A DNA stretch of 64,000 nt from Prosthecobacter debontii (GTDB lineage Bacteria; Verrucomicrobiota; Verrucomicrobiia; Verrucomicrobiales; Verrucomicrobiaceae), in contig NZ_FUYE01000015.1 of the NCBI RefSeq assembly GCF_900167535.1, positions 62,001 to 126,000 of the forward strand. Direction: 5' to 3'. Positions 51,299-58,220 of the stretch are shown piece after piece; positions within the stretch are counted from its first letter, which is position 1; the number at the start of each line of letters is the position of its first letter. The notes beneath the pieces were generated by a model that was given only the letters and a program-made list of their open reading frames with translations, made no database searches and was not told where the DNA came from. A program made the position numbers and the translations under genes.

Positions 51299-51305
51299 CA
51301 AAAAA

Positions 51306-51330
51306 CGGCTCCAGAGGTGATCTGGAGCCG
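51306..51330 (-). terminator. hairpin with T-run reading minus
   Basis: CGGCTCCAGA (51306-51315) pairs perfectly with 51321-51330 around a five-base loop. On the minus strand it is followed by TTTTTT, so it best ends the ferritin gene. On the plus strand it may also help stop the DUF1501 transcript. Confidence 0.8.
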
Positions 51331-51360
51331 CCCGGTTTAATTGAAAGGGGCGAGTGCGTC

Positions 51361-51891
51361 TCAGTGGCCGTGGCCACCCTTGCCGCCACTGCCTTCGGCG
51401 CTCTGGCGTTGCGCGGCTTCGCGGTCGAGGACCAGGAGGCTCGCGGGGTCGGTGCCAGCCAGCTTGAGGCGGTCCAGCATGTCACGCACAGTTTTCTCTT
51501 CTTCGATCTGCTCGTTGAGGAACCACAACAGCAGATTCTTGGAGGAGTGATCTTTCACCTGCTCGGCCAGATCATAAAGATCATTGATCTGTTGAGTGAC
51601 GGCCTGCTCCTGCTTGAGGCTGTGCTCAAAGACATCAATCGGAGATTCAAAGCTGGCTTTCGGCTGAGCAATGGGCTTCAGCGAAACCACAGCGTCGCGG
51701 TCCACGAGATACTGATAGAACTTCAGCGCATGCATGGTTTCCTCACGGCTCTGGTTAAACATCCAGCTCGCAAAGCCAGCATAGGGGGTTTGTTCAAACC
51801 ATGCCGCCATCGCAAGGTAGATGTAGCTGGAGGACATCTCGTTGTTGATCTGCTCATTGAGCAGCTCCGTCAATTTGGGGTTCAGTGTCAT
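51361..51891 (-). CDS. ftn: ferritin (non-heme)
   Basis: The 176-aa protein is a four-helix ferritin. LNEQINNEMSSSYIYLAMAA gives the first Glu, and SREETMHALKFYQYLVDRD the E-x-x-H pair of the ferroxidase centre. LLLWFLNEQIEEEKTVRDML holds the later Glu residues. The C-terminal tail is Gly-His-rich and ends HGH, an unusual metal-binding-looking end beyond the common ferritin length. It stores iron as a shell of 24 subunits. It lies between the hairpin terminator and the amine-oxidase-like gene, 108 bases upstream. Confidence 0.95.
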   Translation of the reverse strand: MTLNPKLTELLNEQINNEMSSSYIYLAMAAWFEQTPYAGFASWMFNQSREETMHALKFYQYLVDRDAVVSLKPIAQPKASFESPIDVFEHSLKQEQAVTQQINDLYDLAEQVKDHSSKNLLLWFLNEQIEEEKTVRDMLDRLKLAGTDPASLLVLDREAAQRQSAEGSGGKGGHGH

Positions 51892-51999: not shown

Positions 52000-53568
52000 T
52001 TAACCTAAGTGCGCGTGAATCGCATCGGCCACCTGCACCCCGCGCGTGTAAGCTTCTTCAAATAAGGACATGCCGCTCATGTCGGAGTGGGCGAAGAAGA
52101 TCGGGGGTTGAGCTTGCTGCATTTGCTCGCGAGCGTTGCCCCAGATGAACCCTGGCTCGGGGCGGATCATGCCATGCCCCCAGAGCCAGACATCCACCTG
52201 CTGCACATGCTCCCTGAGATCTGGATGCGCCATGTGGAGGGAGTGAAGGCTGCGCTCAGCCCAGTCACGATGGGTTTGTGTCTGCATCCACTGGCGGGTT
52301 TGAGCGGGCAGACCGGTATCCAGAGAGTCGTAGTGAGTGATGACCGTTTCACGGGGCACCGCCATCAGGTTCTGGTGGGTGGCGTTCACATACCCCAAAC
52401 CATCGCTGTGATAAATGACATTGTCCCAAGCGGGGAGCACGCCTGGAGAGGGCGGGAGTTCATCCAGGGTGAGGTTGGTGACCACCCAGGGTGAATACGG
52501 AAGTGCCAACGCATGAAGACCCGCGACGATGTGCTGCGCGATGAAGCGGGGCATGGCACATAAGGCGGTGCGGCTCTGATAGCGGATGATTTCGCCCGTG
52601 CTGGCATCCATCACATCGGTGATGACTTGGCTACTGCGCACTTCCATACGCATGACGATGCTGCCGGTGCGTAAACGCTCCTTCAGACCTTCGGAGAGCT
52701 TGTTCACCAGATAGCCATTCCCCTCGGGCCAAGTCAGCACGGTGCCTGCGGTGGCATTGGCGGCATCGCCATTGCGACTGGCGAAGTAGTGGATGCCAGC
52801 CCAGGCGGAGACTTGGTGAAGGCTGCCGCCGAAGTCATCTCGGCAGGCATAGTTGACATACCAGTGGAGCGGTTGACTGGTCCAACCCTGACGAGCCATC
52901 CATTCCGCCATGGAAAGCTGATCCAACTCCATGAGATCCGCATCTCGTGGACTGCGATCAACGGGTAGGACGAAGGCTCGTCGTTCCTGATAGTTGCGAA
53001 TCGTGGCCTCGAAGGCCGCCCATTCTTCACGATCCCGTGGCGTCATGCCTGCCAATGGGGCTATGCCTGCTTCCCATTGCCCGTGAATGAAGAGTCGCTC
53101 ATGAGGCTCCTGACAGAGCGCCACCTCGTCATAGAGAGGTCTGCCAGCGGCATCCCAGCCCTGGATTAGGCCCAGTTCCTCGAACAAGGCACGCACTTCA
53201 TGCAGTTCAGGGCCCGGCAGTGGCACATAGTGAGCGCCCCAGGGATACGCGGAGATGGTATTGTGCCCTGAGATGGAGTTCCCTCCGGCTTTAGGCTCCA
53301 GTTCGAGCAGTGTGAAGTCCTCCACGCCGTTTTTCCTCAGTTGATGGGCCGCCGCTAACCCCGAGATGCCTCCCCCAGCGATGAGCACATCCGTCTGGAT
53401 CACTCGAGAGGGGGAGAGGGGGTGCGCAGGGGAAAAATCGCGCAGCCGATGACCCACACTGGCCGAGGCTCCCAGAATGCGTCCCGGGAGCTCTTGATCA
53501 CGGGAGCAGGAGCCTGTCAGCAAGGCAGGCACCGCAGCCGTGGCTTGGAGAAAACGGCGGCGTTTCAT
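52000..53568 (-). CDS. FAD-dependent amine-oxidase-like oxidoreductase, Tat-exported
   Basis: The 522-aa product begins with a Tat signal (KRRRFLQATAAVPALLTGSC), and Cys21 could be lipidated. The FAD-binding Rossmann motif is DVLIAGGGISGLAAAHQL (about residue 60), and the following Glu-rich LELEPKAGGNSISG binds the ribose. The C-terminal FAD segment includes FFAHSDMSGMSLFEEAYTRG. It belongs to the NAD(P)-binding/amine oxidase superfamily. Being last in the operon with a spermidine-synthase-like gene (ATGA overlap at 53565-53568), it may oxidise a polyamine-type product outside the cytoplasmic membrane. That role is inferred. Confidence 0.85.
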   Translation of the reverse strand: MKRRRFLQATAAVPALLTGSCSRDQELPGRILGASASVGHRLRDFSPAHPLSPSRVIQTDVLIAGGGISGLAAAHQLRKNGVEDFTLLELEPKAGGNSISGHNTISAYPWGAHYVPLPGPELHEVRALFEELGLIQGWDAAGRPLYDEVALCQEPHERLFIHGQWEAGIAPLAGMTPRDREEWAAFEATIRNYQERRAFVLPVDRSPRDADLMELDQLSMAEWMARQGWTSQPLHWYVNYACRDDFGGSLHQVSAWAGIHYFASRNGDAANATAGTVLTWPEGNGYLVNKLSEGLKERLRTGSIVMRMEVRSSQVITDVMDASTGEIIRYQSRTALCAMPRFIAQHIVAGLHALALPYSPWVVTNLTLDELPPSPGVLPAWDNVIYHSDGLGYVNATHQNLMAVPRETVITHYDSLDTGLPAQTRQWMQTQTHRDWAERSLHSLHMAHPDLREHVQQVDVWLWGHGMIRPEPGFIWGNAREQMQQAQPPIFFAHSDMSGMSLFEEAYTRGVQVADAIHAHLG

Positions 53569-55061
53569 CGGCTCCAGTCGTCGTCAAAGTAATGCACCAA
53601 GGCCTGATTATTCAGGCGATTGATCTCGGTCTCCACGCGACCCATGTCAGGGGGGAAGAAGCGGAGCTGAGTCAGGACTTCTTCGGTAACGAAGCGCAGT
53701 CCCTCTGGGAGATAAACCGGACCACTGAGGGGCTGGCGGGAGGCAAGAATAAAACCCCATTCACCAAAGCTGGGCACCAAGGCATGATAGGGTTCAGTCT
53801 GCAAACCACACGCGCGCAGCGTGGCATCCACACACCAGAAAGAATGCCGGGCCACAAAGGGGGAGGTGCTTTGAACGACCAAGGCCGCCTGGGGTGTCAT
53901 GACCTTCAAGAGGCGTTGATAAAAAGTGGTGGTGTAGAGCTTGCCTAACGAAAAGTTAGAGGGATCGGGGAAGTCAATGATGACAAAATCAAAGAGCTCG
54001 TGGTTTCCCGCCAGCCAGGCGAAGGCATCGGCGTTTTCCACATGCACACGCAGGGATTTCAATGCGTCTGCATTTTGCGCGAGCAGCATGGGATTGGTGG
54101 AGAAAAGCTGCGTCATGGCTGGGTCCAGATCCACCAGGGTGATGCTTTCGACCCGGGGATACCGCAGCACTTCACGTGCGGCCAGGCCATCTCCACCGCC
54201 GAGAATGAGGACGCGGCGAGCCTCGGGCAGGCGCGAGAGCCCGGGATGCACCAGCGCCTCATGATAACGGTATTCGTCTCGGCTGCTGAACTGAAGATTA
54301 CTGTTCAGATACAGTCGCAGCTCGTCTTTTTTACGCGTGAGCACGATCCGCTGGTAAGGGGTGGAGGTGGCGTAGATGACGGGATCTGGAAAAGCCGCAT
54401 ACTCACCCCAGCGGGTGATTTCCGTGCCGTGCATGAACCCGGCGATGAGCAGCACCGTTACCGTGAGTCCTTGAACCCAAAGGGAGCGTAGACGGGGGAT
54501 CTCGGCTCTGAGCATGACGAGCGCCAGCAGCCCCACCCCGGCATTGATCAAGCCGAAGAGGAAGGCCGAGCGCACCAGGCCGAGATGTGGCACCAGCACC
54601 AGAGGGAAGAGCAGGGAAGCCAGCAGGGCACCGATGTAGTCGAAGCTAAATACATTGGAGACCAGATCTTTGAAGGCAAAGCGTCCCTCCAGGATGCGCA
54701 GGAGAAGCGGAATCTCCAGGCCCACAAACGAGCCGATGAGAAAGACGATGCTGTAGAGCGGGATGCGGAAGGACACGGTCCAACCAAAAATCAGAAACAG
54801 TAGCGAGGCTGAGCAGCCCCCCAGGAGGGCGATGAGAAACTCCACCCGGATGAATGTTCCGACGAGATTGCCAGTCACAAAACGAGACAGATAAGACCCC
54901 ACCCCCATGGCGAAGAGATAGACGCCAATGATGGTGGAGAATTGCGTGACGGAATCCCCCAAGAGATAAGAAGCCAGCGTGCCTGCAATCAACTCATACA
55001 CCAGGCCGCAGGTGGCGATGGCGAACACTGAGAGCAGCAGGAGCCAGGGGCGGGTATTCAT
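53565..55061 (-). CDS. membrane-anchored spermidine-synthase-like protein
   Basis: I start at the ATG at 55061 (MNTRPWLLLLSVFAIATCGL, 498 aa), because the longer frame would overlap the DUF350 gene. Residues 1-220 contain about seven transmembrane segments. The C-terminal half is a Rossmann methyltransferase-like domain of polyamine aminopropyltransferases, with ILGGGDGLAAREVLRYP and LVDLDPAMTQLF. FVIIDFPDPSNFSLGKLYTT carries the conserved Asp of the DxxDP-type catalytic motif. Substrates would be decarboxylated SAM and a polyamine or other amine. No speD gene is in the window. It is translationally coupled to the FAD enzyme downstream. Confidence 0.88.
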   Translation of the reverse strand: MNTRPWLLLLSVFAIATCGLVYELIAGTLASYLLGDSVTQFSTIIGVYLFAMGVGSYLSRFVTGNLVGTFIRVEFLIALLGGCSASLLFLIFGWTVSFRIPLYSIVFLIGSFVGLEIPLLLRILEGRFAFKDLVSNVFSFDYIGALLASLLFPLVLVPHLGLVRSAFLFGLINAGVGLLALVMLRAEIPRLRSLWVQGLTVTVLLIAGFMHGTEITRWGEYAAFPDPVIYATSTPYQRIVLTRKKDELRLYLNSNLQFSSRDEYRYHEALVHPGLSRLPEARRVLILGGGDGLAAREVLRYPRVESITLVDLDPAMTQLFSTNPMLLAQNADALKSLRVHVENADAFAWLAGNHELFDFVIIDFPDPSNFSLGKLYTTTFYQRLLKVMTPQAALVVQSTSPFVARHSFWCVDATLRACGLQTEPYHALVPSFGEWGFILASRQPLSGPVYLPEGLRFVTEEVLTQLRFFPPDMGRVETEINRLNNQALVHYFDDDWSR

Positions 55062-55128
55062 GAAACGATGCGTGCCTAGCCAGCGCAGGCTTGCGAGCCT
55101 CTCGATGCCAAACCGACGAGCGTGGAGA

Positions 55129-55332
55129 TCAATGAATCGCCGCTGCAATGATCAAGCAAATGCCGAGTGCCGCAGCACCGACTACAATCGCCAGGGCAAG
55201 GTTCTTTTCTTCGACGAGCTGCTTCCACAGGTCATACGGCGTGAGTTTATCCACGATGATGAAACCGGCGATGAAGATCACGATGCCGAGCACGGCATAG
55301 ATCATGGAGTTGAGGAGGATGGTAAAGTCCAT
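55129..55332 (-). CDS. DUF350 membrane protein
   Basis: The 67-aa product has two transmembrane segments (about residues 8-28 and 45-65) separated by VDKLTPYDLWKQLVEEKN, as in the DUF350 (YjfL-like) family. It lies between the small secreted protein and the spermidine-synthase-like gene, the usual neighbourhood of DUF350 in polyamine-type and PspA-linked envelope clusters. Its function is unknown. Confidence 0.85.
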   Translation of the reverse strand: MDFTILLNSMIYAVLGIVIFIAGFIIVDKLTPYDLWKQLVEEKNLALAIVVGAAALGICLIIAAAIH

Positions 55333-55397
55333 GGTGGCGAAGTGAAGGATGAGGGTGAAGTGATGTGATGAAGACGAATGATGTGGTGCCTAACAAG

Positions 55398-55595
55398 TTA
55401 TTTGTGAGAGCCGCCGAAGGACCAGCCGCCACTGCTGCTGCCACTGGTAAAGACTGAGGGACGATAACGATAAGCGGTGCTGGTGAGCGCCCGGCGATTG
55501 GCCGTGTCTGGGAACATCGTCCAGCCACGCATGTTGGCCGTGACGAGGTAGGCGCAGGCCAGAAGGCTGATGGAGGAGTAAAAAGGATGTTTCAT
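55398..55595 (-). CDS. small secreted protein with Gly/Ser-rich, C-terminal HK tail
   Basis: The ATG at 55593-55595 shares its A with the TGA stop of the upstream DUF4178 gene. The 65-aa product has a hydrophobic leader (residues 8-20, YSSISLLACAYLVTA) and ends SGSSSGGWSFGGSHK. The mature part is short and likely flexible. Small size, export signal and a defined C-terminal tail make it a candidate substrate of the operon's enzymes. No homologue is recognised from the sequence alone. Confidence 0.7.
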   Translation of the reverse strand: MKHPFYSSISLLACAYLVTANMRGWTMFPDTANRRALTSTAYRYRPSVFTSGSSSGGWSFGGSHK

Positions 55596-57505
55596 CAGTC
55601 GCTCGAATACGGGTTAAAGTCGCTCTCCATCCAGCGGCGTTTTTCAAAGCTGATGCTGCGCAGGATGAGCCACCCGGGCCATAGGGCGATGAGGCCGAGA
55701 CCGATCCAGAAATTGGACCAGAACAATCCTCCGCGCTCAATGGTGAAGGTGACATTCGCTTGGGTCAGATCGCTGGAGGCATCCGGGGTCACGCGCAGAT
55801 AATAGTCACCGCTGGGAATGGAGGCCAGGGTCACACGCTGGCGGCTGCCATCCGGTGCGGTGGTGTAATTGGCCAGCGGGAACGCCACGGGATAGGTTTG
55901 TTGGCTCTCGGCGGCCACGAGGCTGCCTTTGAGGCCCAGGTATTTGTCGCTGGGGAGTAAGCCGGTGGCGGTGATGTGAACGGGCGCTGAGCTTCCCTCC
56001 AGCTTGAAGGTCTCCGTCACCATCGCATCTCCTGGAGTGGCCCCCTGATAGGTGGCACCGACATGGCTCACTTCTTTGACCGTGCCCCAGCCCATGAAAA
56101 GGATCTGGATGACGATGTAAGCGATGACGGTGAAGACGGCGGGCGTGCGGATCTCCGACAGACGTTGGCGATGGGGATTCGGTTCGTTGAGGTAGGGACC
56201 ATCTGGCGACGGGAAAGTGCGACCGGCTTTGGCAAAAGCCGCCTGCACCTCGGTGTGGGGGAGATATTCTCCACCGGACCAAGTGATCTCATTGAGTCCA
56301 TCCATCTCTTCCTTGGAGAGGATATAAGGCGGTGCGATGAAATCGGTGAGCAGGGCACGTTCACCGTTTTTTACCCGCCAGTAAAACTCACCCAGCACGT
56401 CGGAGGTGATGGCTTCTTCACGGGCAAAGAGCTTGAAGGGACGGCCCTGCCATTCGGAGTCAGTTACATGTCCGGGAAGGAGGCGCACCAGACTCCAGTG
56501 GCCTTTGAACGTGACCAGAAAACGAAAGCCTAACCAAGGATTGAATAGGAGATATTCATCCCAGGAACTCCAGCGATCTTTCCGCCGCATAAAGCCGACG
56601 ATTTCCCACAGCTCACCTTTCAACAGACCGCGCGTGCCGATCTCCAGGAGGGGCTGAAGGCGCAGCGTCGTTTGCGCCACCTTACCGATCTCTTTGAGAC
56701 GCGGGGTGGAGGCATCTAGGATGCTCGCGCAACTTCCACACACTGCACTCATGCTCTGGCCCTCGGCACGCAGATGGACCGGCGCGGCGCACCTCGGGCA
56801 GTTCAGCGCCTCACTCTGGCGGCGGGTGATTTCGGCCTCTTTGTCCCAGCCGGGCACCTTGCGCAGTTCCGTGAAGTTCAGGTCAGCAAACTCCGCGTAT
56901 TCGCCCTGATAAAACTCCACATCTCCCGAGGAGACTTCGATACTGCCGAATTGACCTTGAGGCCCGTTGAGGTCGATGCTGGTGCGCTTCCATCCCGGTG
57001 GCGGCACCATGGGCAGTTCACCCTCGGCGGCGATACATCGCCCTTCTTTCACATCGGTGATCAGCCAGTCTTCTTGATGGATCTTGATCCGCTGTCCGGC
57101 CTTGCTCGTGTCATCCACAAACGGCGGGAGCTTCACGCTGTGCGGAAAGCTCACCATGAAAAAGCCCATCACCTCAGCGATCCAGCCCGTCGTACCTTGG
57201 CCAAAGTCGGCGCACCATTCCGTCCAGGAGCCATCCCCATAGTGAAGACGCATGCGACCGATCAGCGTGAAGGCGCGGCCTTGCCAATGGCCCCGAGTGC
57301 CGATCTGGAGCGGGGAGAGGTCGGGCGGCAGCTCCGCCACTTGACCGTAGTTCTCCACCTGGAAATCCCGCCGGACCACCACCGTGCGGCAGTGGGCACA
57401 GATGGAAGAGATGCTGATGGAGGAGCGGAACTCGACCGGAGCACCGCATTGCGGGCATTCATAGCGGCGGCTGGCAGGGGCTGGGGCAGTCGTCGATGTT
57501 TCCAC
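55595..57505 (-). CDS. DUF4178 protein with duplicated zinc-ribbon/DUF4178 units
   Basis: The 636-aa protein contains two repeated units. Each has a zinc ribbon (CPQCGAPVEF with ICAHC at about residues 18-41; CPRCAAPVHL with VCGSC near 240-265) and then a DUF4178 domain (GTRGHWQGRAFTLIGRMRLH and GTRGLLKGELWEIVGFMRRK). A transmembrane segment follows near 480 (FTVIAYIVIQILFMG), then a beta-rich domain (about 500-590) and a C-terminal hydrophobic segment (FWIGLGLIALWPGWLIL). The zinc-ribbon part probably faces the cytoplasm. It follows the Bpt-like gene by 37 bases and overlaps the small secreted protein gene. Confidence 0.87.
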   Translation of the reverse strand: METSTTAPAPASRRYECPQCGAPVEFRSSISISSICAHCRTVVVRRDFQVENYGQVAELPPDLSPLQIGTRGHWQGRAFTLIGRMRLHYGDGSWTEWCADFGQGTTGWIAEVMGFFMVSFPHSVKLPPFVDDTSKAGQRIKIHQEDWLITDVKEGRCIAAEGELPMVPPPGWKRTSIDLNGPQGQFGSIEVSSGDVEFYQGEYAEFADLNFTELRKVPGWDKEAEITRRQSEALNCPRCAAPVHLRAEGQSMSAVCGSCASILDASTPRLKEIGKVAQTTLRLQPLLEIGTRGLLKGELWEIVGFMRRKDRWSSWDEYLLFNPWLGFRFLVTFKGHWSLVRLLPGHVTDSEWQGRPFKLFAREEAITSDVLGEFYWRVKNGERALLTDFIAPPYILSKEEMDGLNEITWSGGEYLPHTEVQAAFAKAGRTFPSPDGPYLNEPNPHRQRLSEIRTPAVFTVIAYIVIQILFMGWGTVKEVSHVGATYQGATPGDAMVTETFKLEGSSAPVHITATGLLPSDKYLGLKGSLVAAESQQTYPVAFPLANYTTAPDGSRQRVTLASIPSGDYYLRVTPDASSDLTQANVTFTIERGGLFWSNFWIGLGLIALWPGWLILRSISFEKRRWMESDFNPYSSD

Positions 57506-57542
57506 GGGTCTTATTCAAGCGGTAGGAAGGCCGAATGACAAA

Positions 57543-58220
57543 TTACAATTGCGGCTTGGGAATGGATCGGGGCAGCCGCCGCCAGTCACCACTGTCCCAG
57601 TCCAGTGTCTCCAGTCCATGGAGTTGCTTTTTATAGTCATACGGGCTCGGCTCCAGTGTGGCATAGCCCGGGTAATAATAGCGGAGCCCGCGCTCACGAC
57701 TATACTCCAGCTCCCTGAGCATGGTGTAGATGCCTAGGCTGCGCCAATCATGGTCAGGCTCAAACAAACCATAGACGGCAGAGCAGCTCTCCGCTCCGAT
57801 GTCCAGGTAGCTGAGGGCGATGAGTTCCCGGCCCTCATACACCCGGCATTCCACACACTCACAGGGCACCGTGGCCGGATGAGGTGAAAGGAACATGTCC
57901 AGATCATCCGGCACGTTGTCTTTGAAGCGGTTTTTATGGCGCTGAAACATCAACCGCGCCTGCATGCTCAGCGTGGCGGGCGCGAATTCATGCCGGAGAT
58001 CCTCGTTCTTACGCAAGACCCGGCGCTGGCTTTTGCTCAGCTCGAAGCGTGGTAAATCCACCCGCAAGGGGGTGATGGAGCGCACGTGATTTTCGTCAAT
58101 GCTGAGACTGTAGCGGAAAAAAGTGCTGCCAAAATGACGCCAACCGGTGGCCCAGAGACGATCCATAATCTCCGGCGGGACGGAATCGCACAGGAAAGTC
58201 TGATTGATGATCTCGGGCAC
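57543..58220 (-). CDS. Bpt/ATE-like aminoacyl-tRNA-protein transferase (GNAT fold)
   Basis: The frame is open to 58373 (276 aa), but the family-like part begins near VPEIINQTFLCDSVPPEIMD, so I start at the GTG at 58220 (225 aa). SITPLRVDLPRFELSKSQRR matches the pattern of bacterial leucyl/arginyl-tRNA-protein transferases. The C-terminal EYSRERGLRYYYPGYATLEP and YDYKKQLHGLETLDW match their GNAT catalytic region. Such enzymes attach Leu or Arg to the N-terminus of target proteins. A free-standing role in proteolysis is possible, but being first gene in the polyamine-type operon suggests a dedicated substrate. Confidence 0.75.
   Translation of the reverse strand: MPEIINQTFLCDSVPPEIMDRLWATGWRHFGSTFFRYSLSIDENHVRSITPLRVDLPRFELSKSQRRVLRKNEDLRHEFAPATLSMQARLMFQRHKNRFKDNVPDDLDMFLSPHPATVPCECVECRVYEGRELIALSYLDIGAESCSAVYGLFEPDHDWRSLGIYTMLRELEYSRERGLRYYYPGYATLEPSPYDYKKQLHGLETLDWDSGDWRRLPRSIPKPQL

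Follow-up and report, generated by a model that had tools for sequence, protein, structure and literature searches.

Within a 64,000-nucleotide stretch of the Prosthecobacter debontii genome (hereafter, the window), the genes encoding a DUF4178 protein, a small Ser/Gly-rich protein, a DUF350 protein, a 7-TM spermidine-synthase-like enzyme and a Tat-type flavin oxidase constitute one conserved unit, and at the loci examined the small protein of this cassette ends in lysine. The core of the unit is largely described in PMC11237479; what is new here is the small lysine-ended protein, which forms an unannotated family. Its position beside the synthase suggests that the target of the enzyme may be a protein tail. 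We tentatively propose, with a confidence that approaches an even chance without reaching it, that the cassette is an inner-membrane machine that would place an aminopropyl group on the C-terminal lysine of an envelope-tethered protein tail.

As the initial annotation had it, six minus-strand ORFs lie between positions 52000 and ~58220, with TGATG and ATGA overlaps at two junctions (Table 1). The DUF4178 and small-protein ORFs share one base (TGATG at 55595), and the synthase and FAD oxidase ORFs overlap as ATGA at 53565-53568. The gaps measure 37 nt between the Bpt-like and DUF4178 genes, 65 nt between the small protein and DUF350, and 67 nt between DUF350 and the synthase (counting the ATG start of the latter). 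The FAD oxidase gene is followed, at a distance of 108 nt and on its own strand, by a ferritin gene. In comparisons with G033, G045 and G018 (NG86, stop-to-stop frames), dN/dS was well below 1 for all six genes, the values being approximate because dS mostly exceeded 1.

Table 1. Features of the locus, in coordinates of the window.
Feature	Position	Strand	Remarks
ATE_C/Bpt-like transferase	57543..58220	-	GTG start uncertain, upstream starts up to 58373; PF04377 (ATE_C) 70.4 bits (cut-off 25); positional neighbour
DUF4178 protein, 636 aa	55595..57505	-	GTG start; PF13785 91.8 bits, above cut-off
Small Ser/Gly-rich protein, 65 aa	55398..55595	-	One N-terminal hydrophobic segment; ends ...SGSSSGGWSFGGSHK-stop; proposed acceptor
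C-terminal His-Lys codons (CAC AAA) of small protein	55401..55406	-	Directly before TAA at 55398-55400
DUF350 (YjfL family), half-length, 67 aa	55129..55332	-	PF03994 57.9 bits (cut-off 26), model positions 4-65 of 133 only
7-TM + spermidine-synthase-like aminopropyltransferase fusion	53565..55061 (ATG)	-	Alternative TTG start 55148; Spermine_synth 117.5 bits, above cut-off; NF002956/PRK03612 (7TM polyamine aminopropyltransferase) 669.6 bits (cut-off 472)
Tat-type exported flavin amine-oxidase-like protein, 522 aa	52000..53568	-	PF01593 (Amino_oxidase) 30.4 bits (cut-off 19.8)
Ferritin	51361..51891	-	PF00210 140.3 bits; other flank of the site holding the cassette

Orthologues of the DUF4178 protein, the synthase and the FAD oxidase were found in an identical set of 19 out of 115 related genomes, and this co-occurrence holds where the genes sit on separate loci (G028, G040 and G043); in G044, the FAD oxidase gene lies apart from the rest of the cassette. 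The orthologue counts leave out the other-type synthases present in G072 and G074 (37% identical), as well as weak oxidase or methyltransferase matches. DUF350 is present in all 19 cassette genomes. Furthermore, the gene order of the cassette recurs across many phyla. The loci elsewhere are the best 80 matches of one scan, and hence number at least 80; they are not independent, because they are related by descent. Among the matches listed, an FAD oxidase (>550 bits) lies within 62 of 79 loci of other genomes, a SpeD gene within 49 of 79, and a Band_7/SHOCT-type gene upstream in 35 of 80.

The initial annotation had extended the unit to the Bpt-like transferase, reading all six genes as a single pathway by which an amine or amino acid is attached to a target in the envelope, and had named neighbourhood comparison as a means of refuting it. 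That comparison upholds five of the six families as a unit and contradicts the membership of the sixth. The Bpt-like gene occurs in 77 of the 115 related genomes and the cassette in 19 only; the two are linked in five of the 115, all of one clade, and, among the matches listed, at one of 80 loci elsewhere (L136, identical with G045). In G038, G041 and G042, three genomes without the cassette, the Bpt-like gene directly adjoins ferritin, and in two of these the pair precedes the pst genes that are also found in the window. The shared strand and the 37-nt gap make co-transcription of the cassette with the Bpt-like gene possible in this clade and speak for a six-gene pathway, which the linkage counts and the cassette-free pairs nonetheless render highly improbable. 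We conclude that the Bpt-like gene is a positional neighbour outside the cassette. Its product passes the cut-off for ATE_C, falls below that for ATE_N (24.6 against 27 bits) and reaches no NCBIfam equivalog cut-off (best score 109.7 against 170). No CxxC pair was seen by eye in its N-terminal stretch across 30 aligned relatives; an N-terminal Cys cluster is a motif of ATE/Bpt transferases.

Operons with DUF4178, DUF350 and 7TM-spermidine-synthase genes are already present in PMC11237479, at odds with the earlier suggestion that the combination may be undescribed, and the main text of that paper presents variants with AdoMet decarboxylase, polyamine oxidase and band-7 proteins. The window shares with these PSP-paper operons, as given there, the adjacency of DUF4178, DUF350 and 7TM-SpdSyn, whereas its operon lacks the PspA-CesT dyad, the band-7 gene and AdoMetDC and is flanked by the Bpt-like and ferritin genes, its genome has no SpeD match and its DUF350 is of half length. 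The main text of PMC11237479 does not describe a lysine-ended small protein and contains the word 'lysine' 0 times. PMC12803844 reports that the membrane-SpdSyn fusion makes neither spermidine nor spermine. The fusion is widespread and often encoded beside an AdoMet decarboxylase, and its target has long been sought.

The small protein, taken initially for a Gly-rich secreted one, looks single-TM anchored rather than simply secreted; what makes it informative is its C-terminus, ...GGSHK. It matches no Pfam or NCBIfam family, and the K+R charges on the two sides of its hydrophobic segment (1.42 versus 1.35) do not fix its orientation. An HK or GGK C-terminus is found in 88 of 88 cassettes, comprising the intact loci among the matches listed together with the window and its relatives; the window and 17 further relatives all end in HK. 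Among the matches listed, all 70 intact cassette loci carry an HK or GGK end (65 by script, 5 by eye), compared to none of 146 ORFs in an antisense control, and 1275 large background ORFs yielded 0 HK, 4 [GSR]GK and 106 K ends. Plasmid loci fetched after the motif had been fixed contained a lysine-ended protein in 8 of 8 cases; 6 of them match the motif (HK or [GSR]GK), while the other 2 were identified by eye. The HK/GGK motif has exceptions: among held-out loci, L324 ends in VK, L320 in HGK and both L325 and L326 in SGK, and the tail of the window-type locus L316 ends in TGK. At L312, no separate HK- or GK-ended ORF stands beside the DUF4178 protein, which itself ends ...GGSHK.

Across the 70 loci among the matches listed, the lysine is encoded by AAA in 50 and AAG in 20, and the histidine by CAC in 39 and CAT in 16; four Gly codons and three stops are in use, and the distance to the next gene varies. 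Since the Lys, His, Gly and stop codons and the downstream distance vary, the C-terminal lysine is, judging from these sequences, kept at the protein level, in a family with a mean column identity of 20%.

Lysine tails also occur at synthase loci of another type, defined as those without a match to the window-type DUF4178 profile. Thirteen of 17 such loci encode a same-strand protein ending in [GSR]GK, an end present in 13 of 499 same-strand ORFs versus 0 of 562 on the opposite strand. These 13 proteins form three groups that are not alike by BLAST at E 0.001, and most of the scaffolds bear, by eye, a lipobox-type signal. In the four other loci (L304, L306, L305 and L308) the fetched stretch contained no K-tailed protein, the stretches of L305 and L308 ending at contig ends. 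L318, one of the 17, is a biased entry because it was found via the body of a tail protein. A weak homologue of the L318-type tail body, at L319, has no synthase nearby and ends ...SRDR, a single case that fits the idea.

The E. coli operons yjfIJKLMC and ygiBC share with the cassette a polyamine enzyme, a tail protein with a Gly/Ser-rich end and, in yjf, a DUF350 neighbour; they differ in that an ATP-grasp ligase replaces the aminopropyltransferase and in that the tails end in GG, not K. RefSeq names their products in E. coli as DUF350 YjfL, DUF1190 YjfM/YgiB and peptide-spermidine ligase YjfC/YgiC. Seven of 8 DUF1190 proteins from operons with a peptide-spermidine ligase terminate in GG (the exception is L261), and a ligase-like ORF adjoins 7 of 8 DUF1190 genes (named in K-12, otherwise assigned by eye); the L264 stretch of this set is cut. 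DUF350-type genes stand beside -GG tails (L262 and L264-L266, by eye; yjfL in K-12) as well as beside -K tails, and the terminal residue follows the enzyme class, K with the synthase and GG with the ligase.

A conserved C-terminal residue could also be a recognition or charge signal. Under such an explanation, the lysine and its Gly/Ser/His tail would stay chemically unmodified and serve recognition, charge or turnover, for example through DUF350, DUF4178 or a protease that reads the C-terminus. This accords with C-terminal residues being common recognition sites and with tails of low complexity on an anchored body; we nevertheless consider it unlikely, given that DUF350-type genes accompany both kinds of tail and that the terminal residue tracks the enzyme. 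The lysine tails in every intact cassette examined among the matches listed and on unrelated exported proteins in most other operons of this enzyme, together with GG under the ligase, suggest a specific, testable acceptor.

In the aminopropylation model, the 7-TM enzyme would use the usual chemistry of spermidine synthases to place an aminopropyl group on the side-chain amine of the lysine that ends the adjoining small tail protein; its substrates in other operons would be unrelated exported proteins that likewise terminate in lysine. The resulting side chain, -(CH2)4-NH-(CH2)3-NH2, would have the C4-N-C3-N skeleton of spermidine, so that the tail would end in a polyamine; E. coli-type operons may arrive at a similar product through ligation of spermidine to a -GG tail. 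The wider evidence favours an amine modification of some envelope target, as first put forward from the six genes, with five genes as the conserved unit. Protein lysine side chains take polyamine-derived propylamine or aminobutyl groups in diatom silaffin polyamination and in eIF5A hypusine, although these modifications differ from the proposed tail in affecting internal lysines, in eukaryotes, through other enzymes. We would wager somewhat against, yet regard as possible, the generalization that across many bacterial phyla a dedicated membrane system related to SpdSyn gives the C-terminal lysine of Gly/Ser-rich envelope tails a spermidine-like end, that peptide-spermidine ligases act comparably on -GG, and that the genus of the window, without AdoMet decarboxylase, uses another donor or source.

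Li et al. 2019 reportedly described a fusion of a membrane protein with a SpdSyn-like domain. Residues Y295, D320, D392, D395 and Q426, the equivalents of the catalytic residues of human SpdSyn, are invariant among 12 of 12 members of the genus and 73 of 73 SpeD-positive relatives, and they correspond to the set of aminopropyltransferases (Tyr, GGGDG Asp, catalytic Asp pair and Gln). Spermidine synthases act on small amines, and this set is of the small-molecule aminopropyltransferase type; the enzyme might aminopropylate a membrane small molecule or lipid (an amine other than putrescine), which the 7-TM domain could present, with the Lys-tailed protein as a C-terminally docking partner. We judge this somewhat unlikely, as it leaves unexplained the lysine on several unrelated scaffolds versus the Gly-Gly on the DUF1190 proteins of ligase operons. 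The K+R contents per loop of the seven TM segments (0.77/0/2.73/1.04/3.68/0.97/2.26) follow a positive-inside pattern that, provided TM7 crosses the membrane, would place the transferase domain outside. Such a periplasmic domain would require an extracytoplasmic donor, and none is known there.

The absence of speD, first noticed at the locus, extends to the whole 6.29-Mb genome (99.6% complete), in which no match was found. None of the 48 genomes of the genus, a few of which may lack sequence because they are incomplete, gave a SpeD (PF02675) match, with controls positive in 8 of 14; 13 of the 48 carry the cassette. It was positive in 7 of 115 relatives, adjoins the FAD oxidase gene in four of the six cassette-bearing relatives that lie outside the genus, and is present, among the matches listed, in 69 of 79 cassette genomes elsewhere, where it would supply the donor. 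Class-2 AdoMetDC (PF01536) gave no match in 19 genomes, but neither did its controls. Lacking SpeD, the genus would either obtain decarboxylated AdoMet by a different route or use a different donor, for which AdoMet itself is the candidate. Direct use of AdoMet on the same acceptor (3-amino-3-carboxypropyl or methyl transfer) would suit the distribution of SpeD and has precedents for the 3-amino-3-carboxypropyl group in BtaA and MccD; no other cassette protein is, moreover, as conserved as the synthase (dN/dS about 0.05-0.06). Against it, the catalytic positions are unchanged, none of nine genus-specific substitutions (by our own rule) is catalytic, and a non-homologous decarboxylase could be at work, so that we find direct use quite unlikely. 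The genus offers a natural test of donor identity.

Export of the amine-oxidase-like enzyme by the Tat route, as initially annotated, agrees with the twin-Arg pattern that 67 of 81 orthologues show, the TAT_signal match of the window protein being weak (E 0.084). Its AF2 model (pLDDT 91.7) superposes on putrescine oxidase 2yg7 (Z 28.3, 418 aligned, 3.6 A) and on spermidine dehydrogenase SpdH 7d9i (Z 26.8, 455 aligned, 4.1 A), so that the protein is predicted to have the putrescine oxidase/MAO fold, at 15-17% identity to these two enzymes. SpdH is periplasmic. The exported oxidase might trim or reverse the amine mark, and DUF350 and the DUF4178 protein might keep the complex in the membrane or sense it there. 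The DUF4178 protein is built of two Zn-ribbon/DUF4178 units, a TM helix, a beta-sandwich, a second TM helix and a short tail. In its AF2 model (pLDDT 87.3), helices 444-473 and 596-626 flank strands 477-591, and the segment 474-594 of the model is matched by beta-sandwich structures from many families (best Z 9.8).

All six ORFs of the run proposed in the initial annotation were recovered, with overlaps at two junctions, and five of them were named by Pfam and NCBIfam searches as ATE_C (the Bpt-like transferase), DUF4178, DUF350, Spermine_synth and Amino_oxidase, the synthase being assigned to the seven-transmembrane family NF002956 (669.6 bits, NCBIfam). The sixth ORF, encoding a small protein of 65 aa, matched no family in Pfam or NCBIfam.

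Coordinates of features in the window and in comparison loci (positions relative to the window or to the named locus)
Feature	Position	Strand and setting	Basis
Bpt-like transferase gene	57543-58220	flanks cassette	
Ferritin gene	51361-51891	minus, same strand as cassette, downstream	ORF reading, Pfam
HATPase-type kinase gene	upstream of six-gene run	divergent	ORF reading, Pfam
Top terminator-like site (13 pairs)	51303-51333	minus, directly 3' of ferritin	consensus match only
Membrane-like protein, ~376 aa, no Pfam match	L161:6181-7302	downstream of cassette, same strand	
DUF4178 protein ending ...GGSHK after a TM segment	L312:2467-3993		
Lipoprotein-like protein, 510 aa, ending ...SSGK	L326:9195-10727	Alteromonas plasmid, synthase operon	

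Five of these genes form a cassette (DUF4178, small protein, DUF350, synthase and FAD, the Tat-type flavin amine oxidase) that behaves as a unit. Among 115 related genomes (the window's own, 47 of the same genus, and others from its family and order), strong-match orthologues of DUF4178, synthase and FAD occur in an identical set of 19 (G000, 005, 018, 023, 028, 033, 034, 037, 039, 040, 043, 044, 045, 052, 053, 057, 061, 063 and 112), including a partial synthase in G043 and a partial FAD in G112; amine oxidases of other kinds and methyltransferases that matched only weakly were not taken as orthologues, nor were the other-type synthases found in G072 and G074 (37-38% identity). Since the genomes are related, these 19 are not independent events. 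The co-occurrence holds despite the scattering of the genes in G028, G040 and G043 (loci L246-L253), where the dispersed cassette genes are all retained and those for DUF4178, the small protein and DUF350 are still together. DUF350 is present in all 19 cassette genomes and in 23 others (42/115), in which it accompanies no window-type cassette (e.g. L112, L116, L119) and is mostly half-length, G072 and G074 having full-length copies.

The Bpt-like gene, initially placed in the same pathway, is present in 77 of the 115 genomes and adjoins the cassette in only five (G000, G018, G033, G045 and G034, where it is fragmentary and lies at a contig end), which group in a single clade of the synthase tree (support 98). 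The cassette-free genomes G041 and G042 carry contiguous ferritin, Bpt, pstB, pstA and pstC genes, and ferritin adjoins Bpt in G038, also cassette-free; Bpt and ferritin flank the cassette in G000, G018, G033 and G045. Directly after the cassette of G057, which belongs to another genus, stands a 72%-identical relative of the gene found beyond ferritin in the window, both of which we take to be DUF1501. The Bpt-ferritin pair without cassette and the G057 arrangement (loci L216, L217, L218, L226-L228 and L234) thus indicate that two neighbourhoods were joined in the window's clade, by insertion or loss, and on the genome neighbourhoods we reject a six-gene pathway that includes Bpt. The Bpt-like protein also falls below the ATE_N and arginyltransferase cut-offs (Pfam, NCBIfam), and no N-terminal Cys pair was seen by eye in 30 aligned relatives.

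Cassettes in other organisms were taken from one scan of named genomes, and among the best 80 loci listed, which span many phyla, the gene order DUF4178, small ORF, DUF350, synthase, FAD recurs. Setting aside L136, which is G045, strong FAD matches lie within 62 of 79 loci, some loci ending at contig ends, and SpeD, the AdoMet decarboxylase presumed to supply the aminopropyl donor, stands before or after the cassette in 49. A further 20 of the 30 loci without nearby SpeD have it elsewhere in the genome, making 69 of 79 cassette genomes, the other 10 being of unstated completeness. Upstream, 35 of the 80 loci have a Band_7/SHOCT-type gene, and downstream 12 have the ~376-aa membrane-like protein; the conserved neighbours also include generic families such as response regulators. 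One annotated plasmid carries SPFH, DUF4178, DUF4178, hypothetical, DUF350, aminopropyltransferase, FAD oxidoreductase and speD. As the passages of PMC11237479 covered here already describe most of this operon type, crediting Li et al. 2019 with the AdoMetDC link, the suggestion that the gene combination may be undescribed does not stand; the type is known, and the window is a variant whose operon lacks SpeD, PspA and band-7 genes. According to the passages covered of PMC12803844, spermidine and spermine synthesis do not involve the bacterial homologues of the membrane-APT fusion.

The small protein ends in lysine in every one of these loci with an intact interval. After exclusion of 10 of the best 80 loci listed, which had no DUF4178 or no intact interval, a short ORF was found between DUF4178 and DUF350 in 70 of 70, usually with a single hydrophobic segment near the N terminus and a tail rich in Gly/Ser/His; 65 passed the script's TM threshold and those of L137, L144, L145, L156 and L159 were read by eye. 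The C-terminal end was HK in 55 and GGK in 15, against 0 of 146 antisense ORFs, and the HK end was also present in the window and in 17 further relatives, for a total of 88 cassettes in which L136 (G045) is counted once and L143 is the G052 contig by synthase identity. In a background of 1275 large ORFs from these loci and related ones, HK ended none, [GSR]GK four and any lysine 106. The family is otherwise variable (mean column identity 20%). Over all 70 loci the codons chosen for the HK end, the stop codon and the spacing to the next gene vary, indicating that the constraint acts on the protein; a nucleotide-level cause, such as the ribosome-binding site of DUF350, is ruled out by the variable codons and distances.

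Eight plasmid loci, obtained after the motif had been fixed, all encode a lysine-ended cassette protein (THK, SHK, SHK, SHK, HGK, VK, SGK and SGK), six ends fitting the motif and two (L320, L324) read by eye. These eight, three of them from one genus, were retained from 13 matches, H6, H7, H9, H12 and H13 being left out because they come from the genus or species of a retained locus or match only in part. The script's motif rule returned one same-strand ORF each in L321, L322, L325, L326 and L327, and its three opposite-strand matches comprise the genuine proteins of L323, encoded with a divergent DUF4178 unit, and of L328 (the gene of L326), together with a 50-aa ORF. In L326 the lysine-ended protein is the 510-aa lipoprotein-like one, and its synthase operon also holds SpeD, a toxic-anion-resistance gene, DUF4178 and DUF350. 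Three more window-type loci are all lysine-ended: L316 (TGK), L315, from the already counted genome of L164, and L312, where no separate HK- or GK-ended ORF was found beside the DUF4178 protein and the lysine tail sits on DUF4178 itself.

Lysine ends also occur on unrelated scaffolds. The comparison covered 17 other-type synthase loci from Gammaproteobacteria and Verrucomicrobiota relatives, defined as having no window-type DUF4178 profile match. In 13 of them a single protein encoded on the same strand, 190-370 aa long, ends in [GSR]GK (13/499 same-strand vs 0/562 opposite-strand ORFs), mostly with a lipobox-type signal as judged by eye. Without their last 40 residues, these 13 proteins fall into three mutually unlike groups (BLAST, E 0.001). 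The stretches of L304, L306, L305 and L308 hold no K-tailed protein, the last two ending at contig ends; two further stretches without a synthase, L317 (GGK end) and L319 (end not K), were kept outside the 17. In contrast to the lysine of the synthase operons, GG is the end of E. coli YjfM and YgiB, whose genes adjoin those of the peptide-spermidine ligases YjfC and YgiC. This ligase identity follows RefSeq names, a reference title and the passages covered of PMC12568646, which call YgiC and YjfC peptidylpolyamine synthetases. The GG end recurs in five of six further DUF1190 proteins, and rests on eight proteins because DUF1190 was matched in only 6 of 274 genomes of the class of G121. The exception, L261, lies beside a YgiC-like ORF and is either real or a sequence error. 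With lysine ends accompanying the synthase and GG ends the ligase, the identity of the final residue tracks the enzyme class in these sets.

SpeD (PF02675) was matched in 7 of the 115 genomes, directly beside FAD in G052, G053, G061 and G063 and also in G072, G074 and G083. The 48 genomes of the window's genus, including 13 with the cassette, gave no match, bearing out the earlier remark that no speD is present. A search of the 19 cassette genomes for the class-2 enzyme (PF01536) also returned no match, a weak result as the controls gave none either. In the synthase tree the genus, G057 and G063 form one clade (support 100) of unresolved inner order, within which G063 retains SpeD and G057 is without it. 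The synthase is the best-conserved cassette protein, with 88-89% identity to those of G033, G045 and G018 and a dN/dS of about 0.05-0.06, which is approximate given dS >1. Its catalytic positions, compared in 12 genus members (the G043 fragment left out), are the same as in 73 SpeD-positive relatives; this intact set and the low dN/dS rule out a synthase degenerate after SpeD loss. A search for donor-switch positions found nine genus-specific substitutions, with 0 at catalytic positions.

The C4 diamine putrescine is the normal aminopropyl acceptor of spermidine synthase, and the side chain of lysine presents the same butylamine. We propose, tentatively and at slightly under even confidence, that the synthase may transfer an aminopropyl group to the epsilon-amine of the lysine that ends the tail protein, that the modified lysine would be a spermidine-like side chain, and that the exported oxidase would act on this aminopropyl mark. 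The data establish the five-gene unit, the tail rule within the loci compared and the lack of SpeD; the acceptor, the membrane side and what the oxidase does are inferred. Seven TM segments are predicted in the synthase, with Lys and Arg concentrated in loops 2, 4 and 6, which would place the N terminus inside and, provided TM7 spans, the transferase domain outside, on the side where lipoprotein-type tails would be. Alternatively, a transferase domain located inside would modify the tail before export; the loop charges point to an outside domain, which leaves the route of the donor unexplained. The FAD protein is the putative exported oxidase: a twin-Arg pattern is present in 67 of 81 orthologues (TAT_signal in the window protein only E 0.084), and its model (pLDDT 91.7) has an amine-oxidase fold nearest to renalase, putrescine oxidase and monoamine oxidase, with SpdH close behind.

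Titles and abstract openings among the papers listed mention no C-terminal lysine tail or aminopropylated tail, and neither the lysine tail nor the Gly-Gly counterpart of ligase operons appears in the passages covered of PMC11237479, PMC11107197, PMC12803844, PMC10948618, PMC12568646, PMC12270671 and PMC9992855. Within this scope both features appear to be new; an earlier mention in Li 2019, Pederick 2023, other subscription papers or supplements is possible.

In the model of the DUF4178 protein (pLDDT 87.3) two long helices flank a beta-sandwich. Fold matches in the list obtained (Z up to 9.8), which bears hardly at all on the DUF4178 units, are confined to this membrane-flanked beta-sandwich (474-594) and spread over many unrelated families, and no function was inferred from them.

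A consensus scan of the window region gave promoter-like sites near expectation (4 vs 2.9 by chance) and 14 terminator-like sites against 5.3 expected. As the strongest of the latter comes directly after ferritin, this gene and the cassette may be transcribed together.
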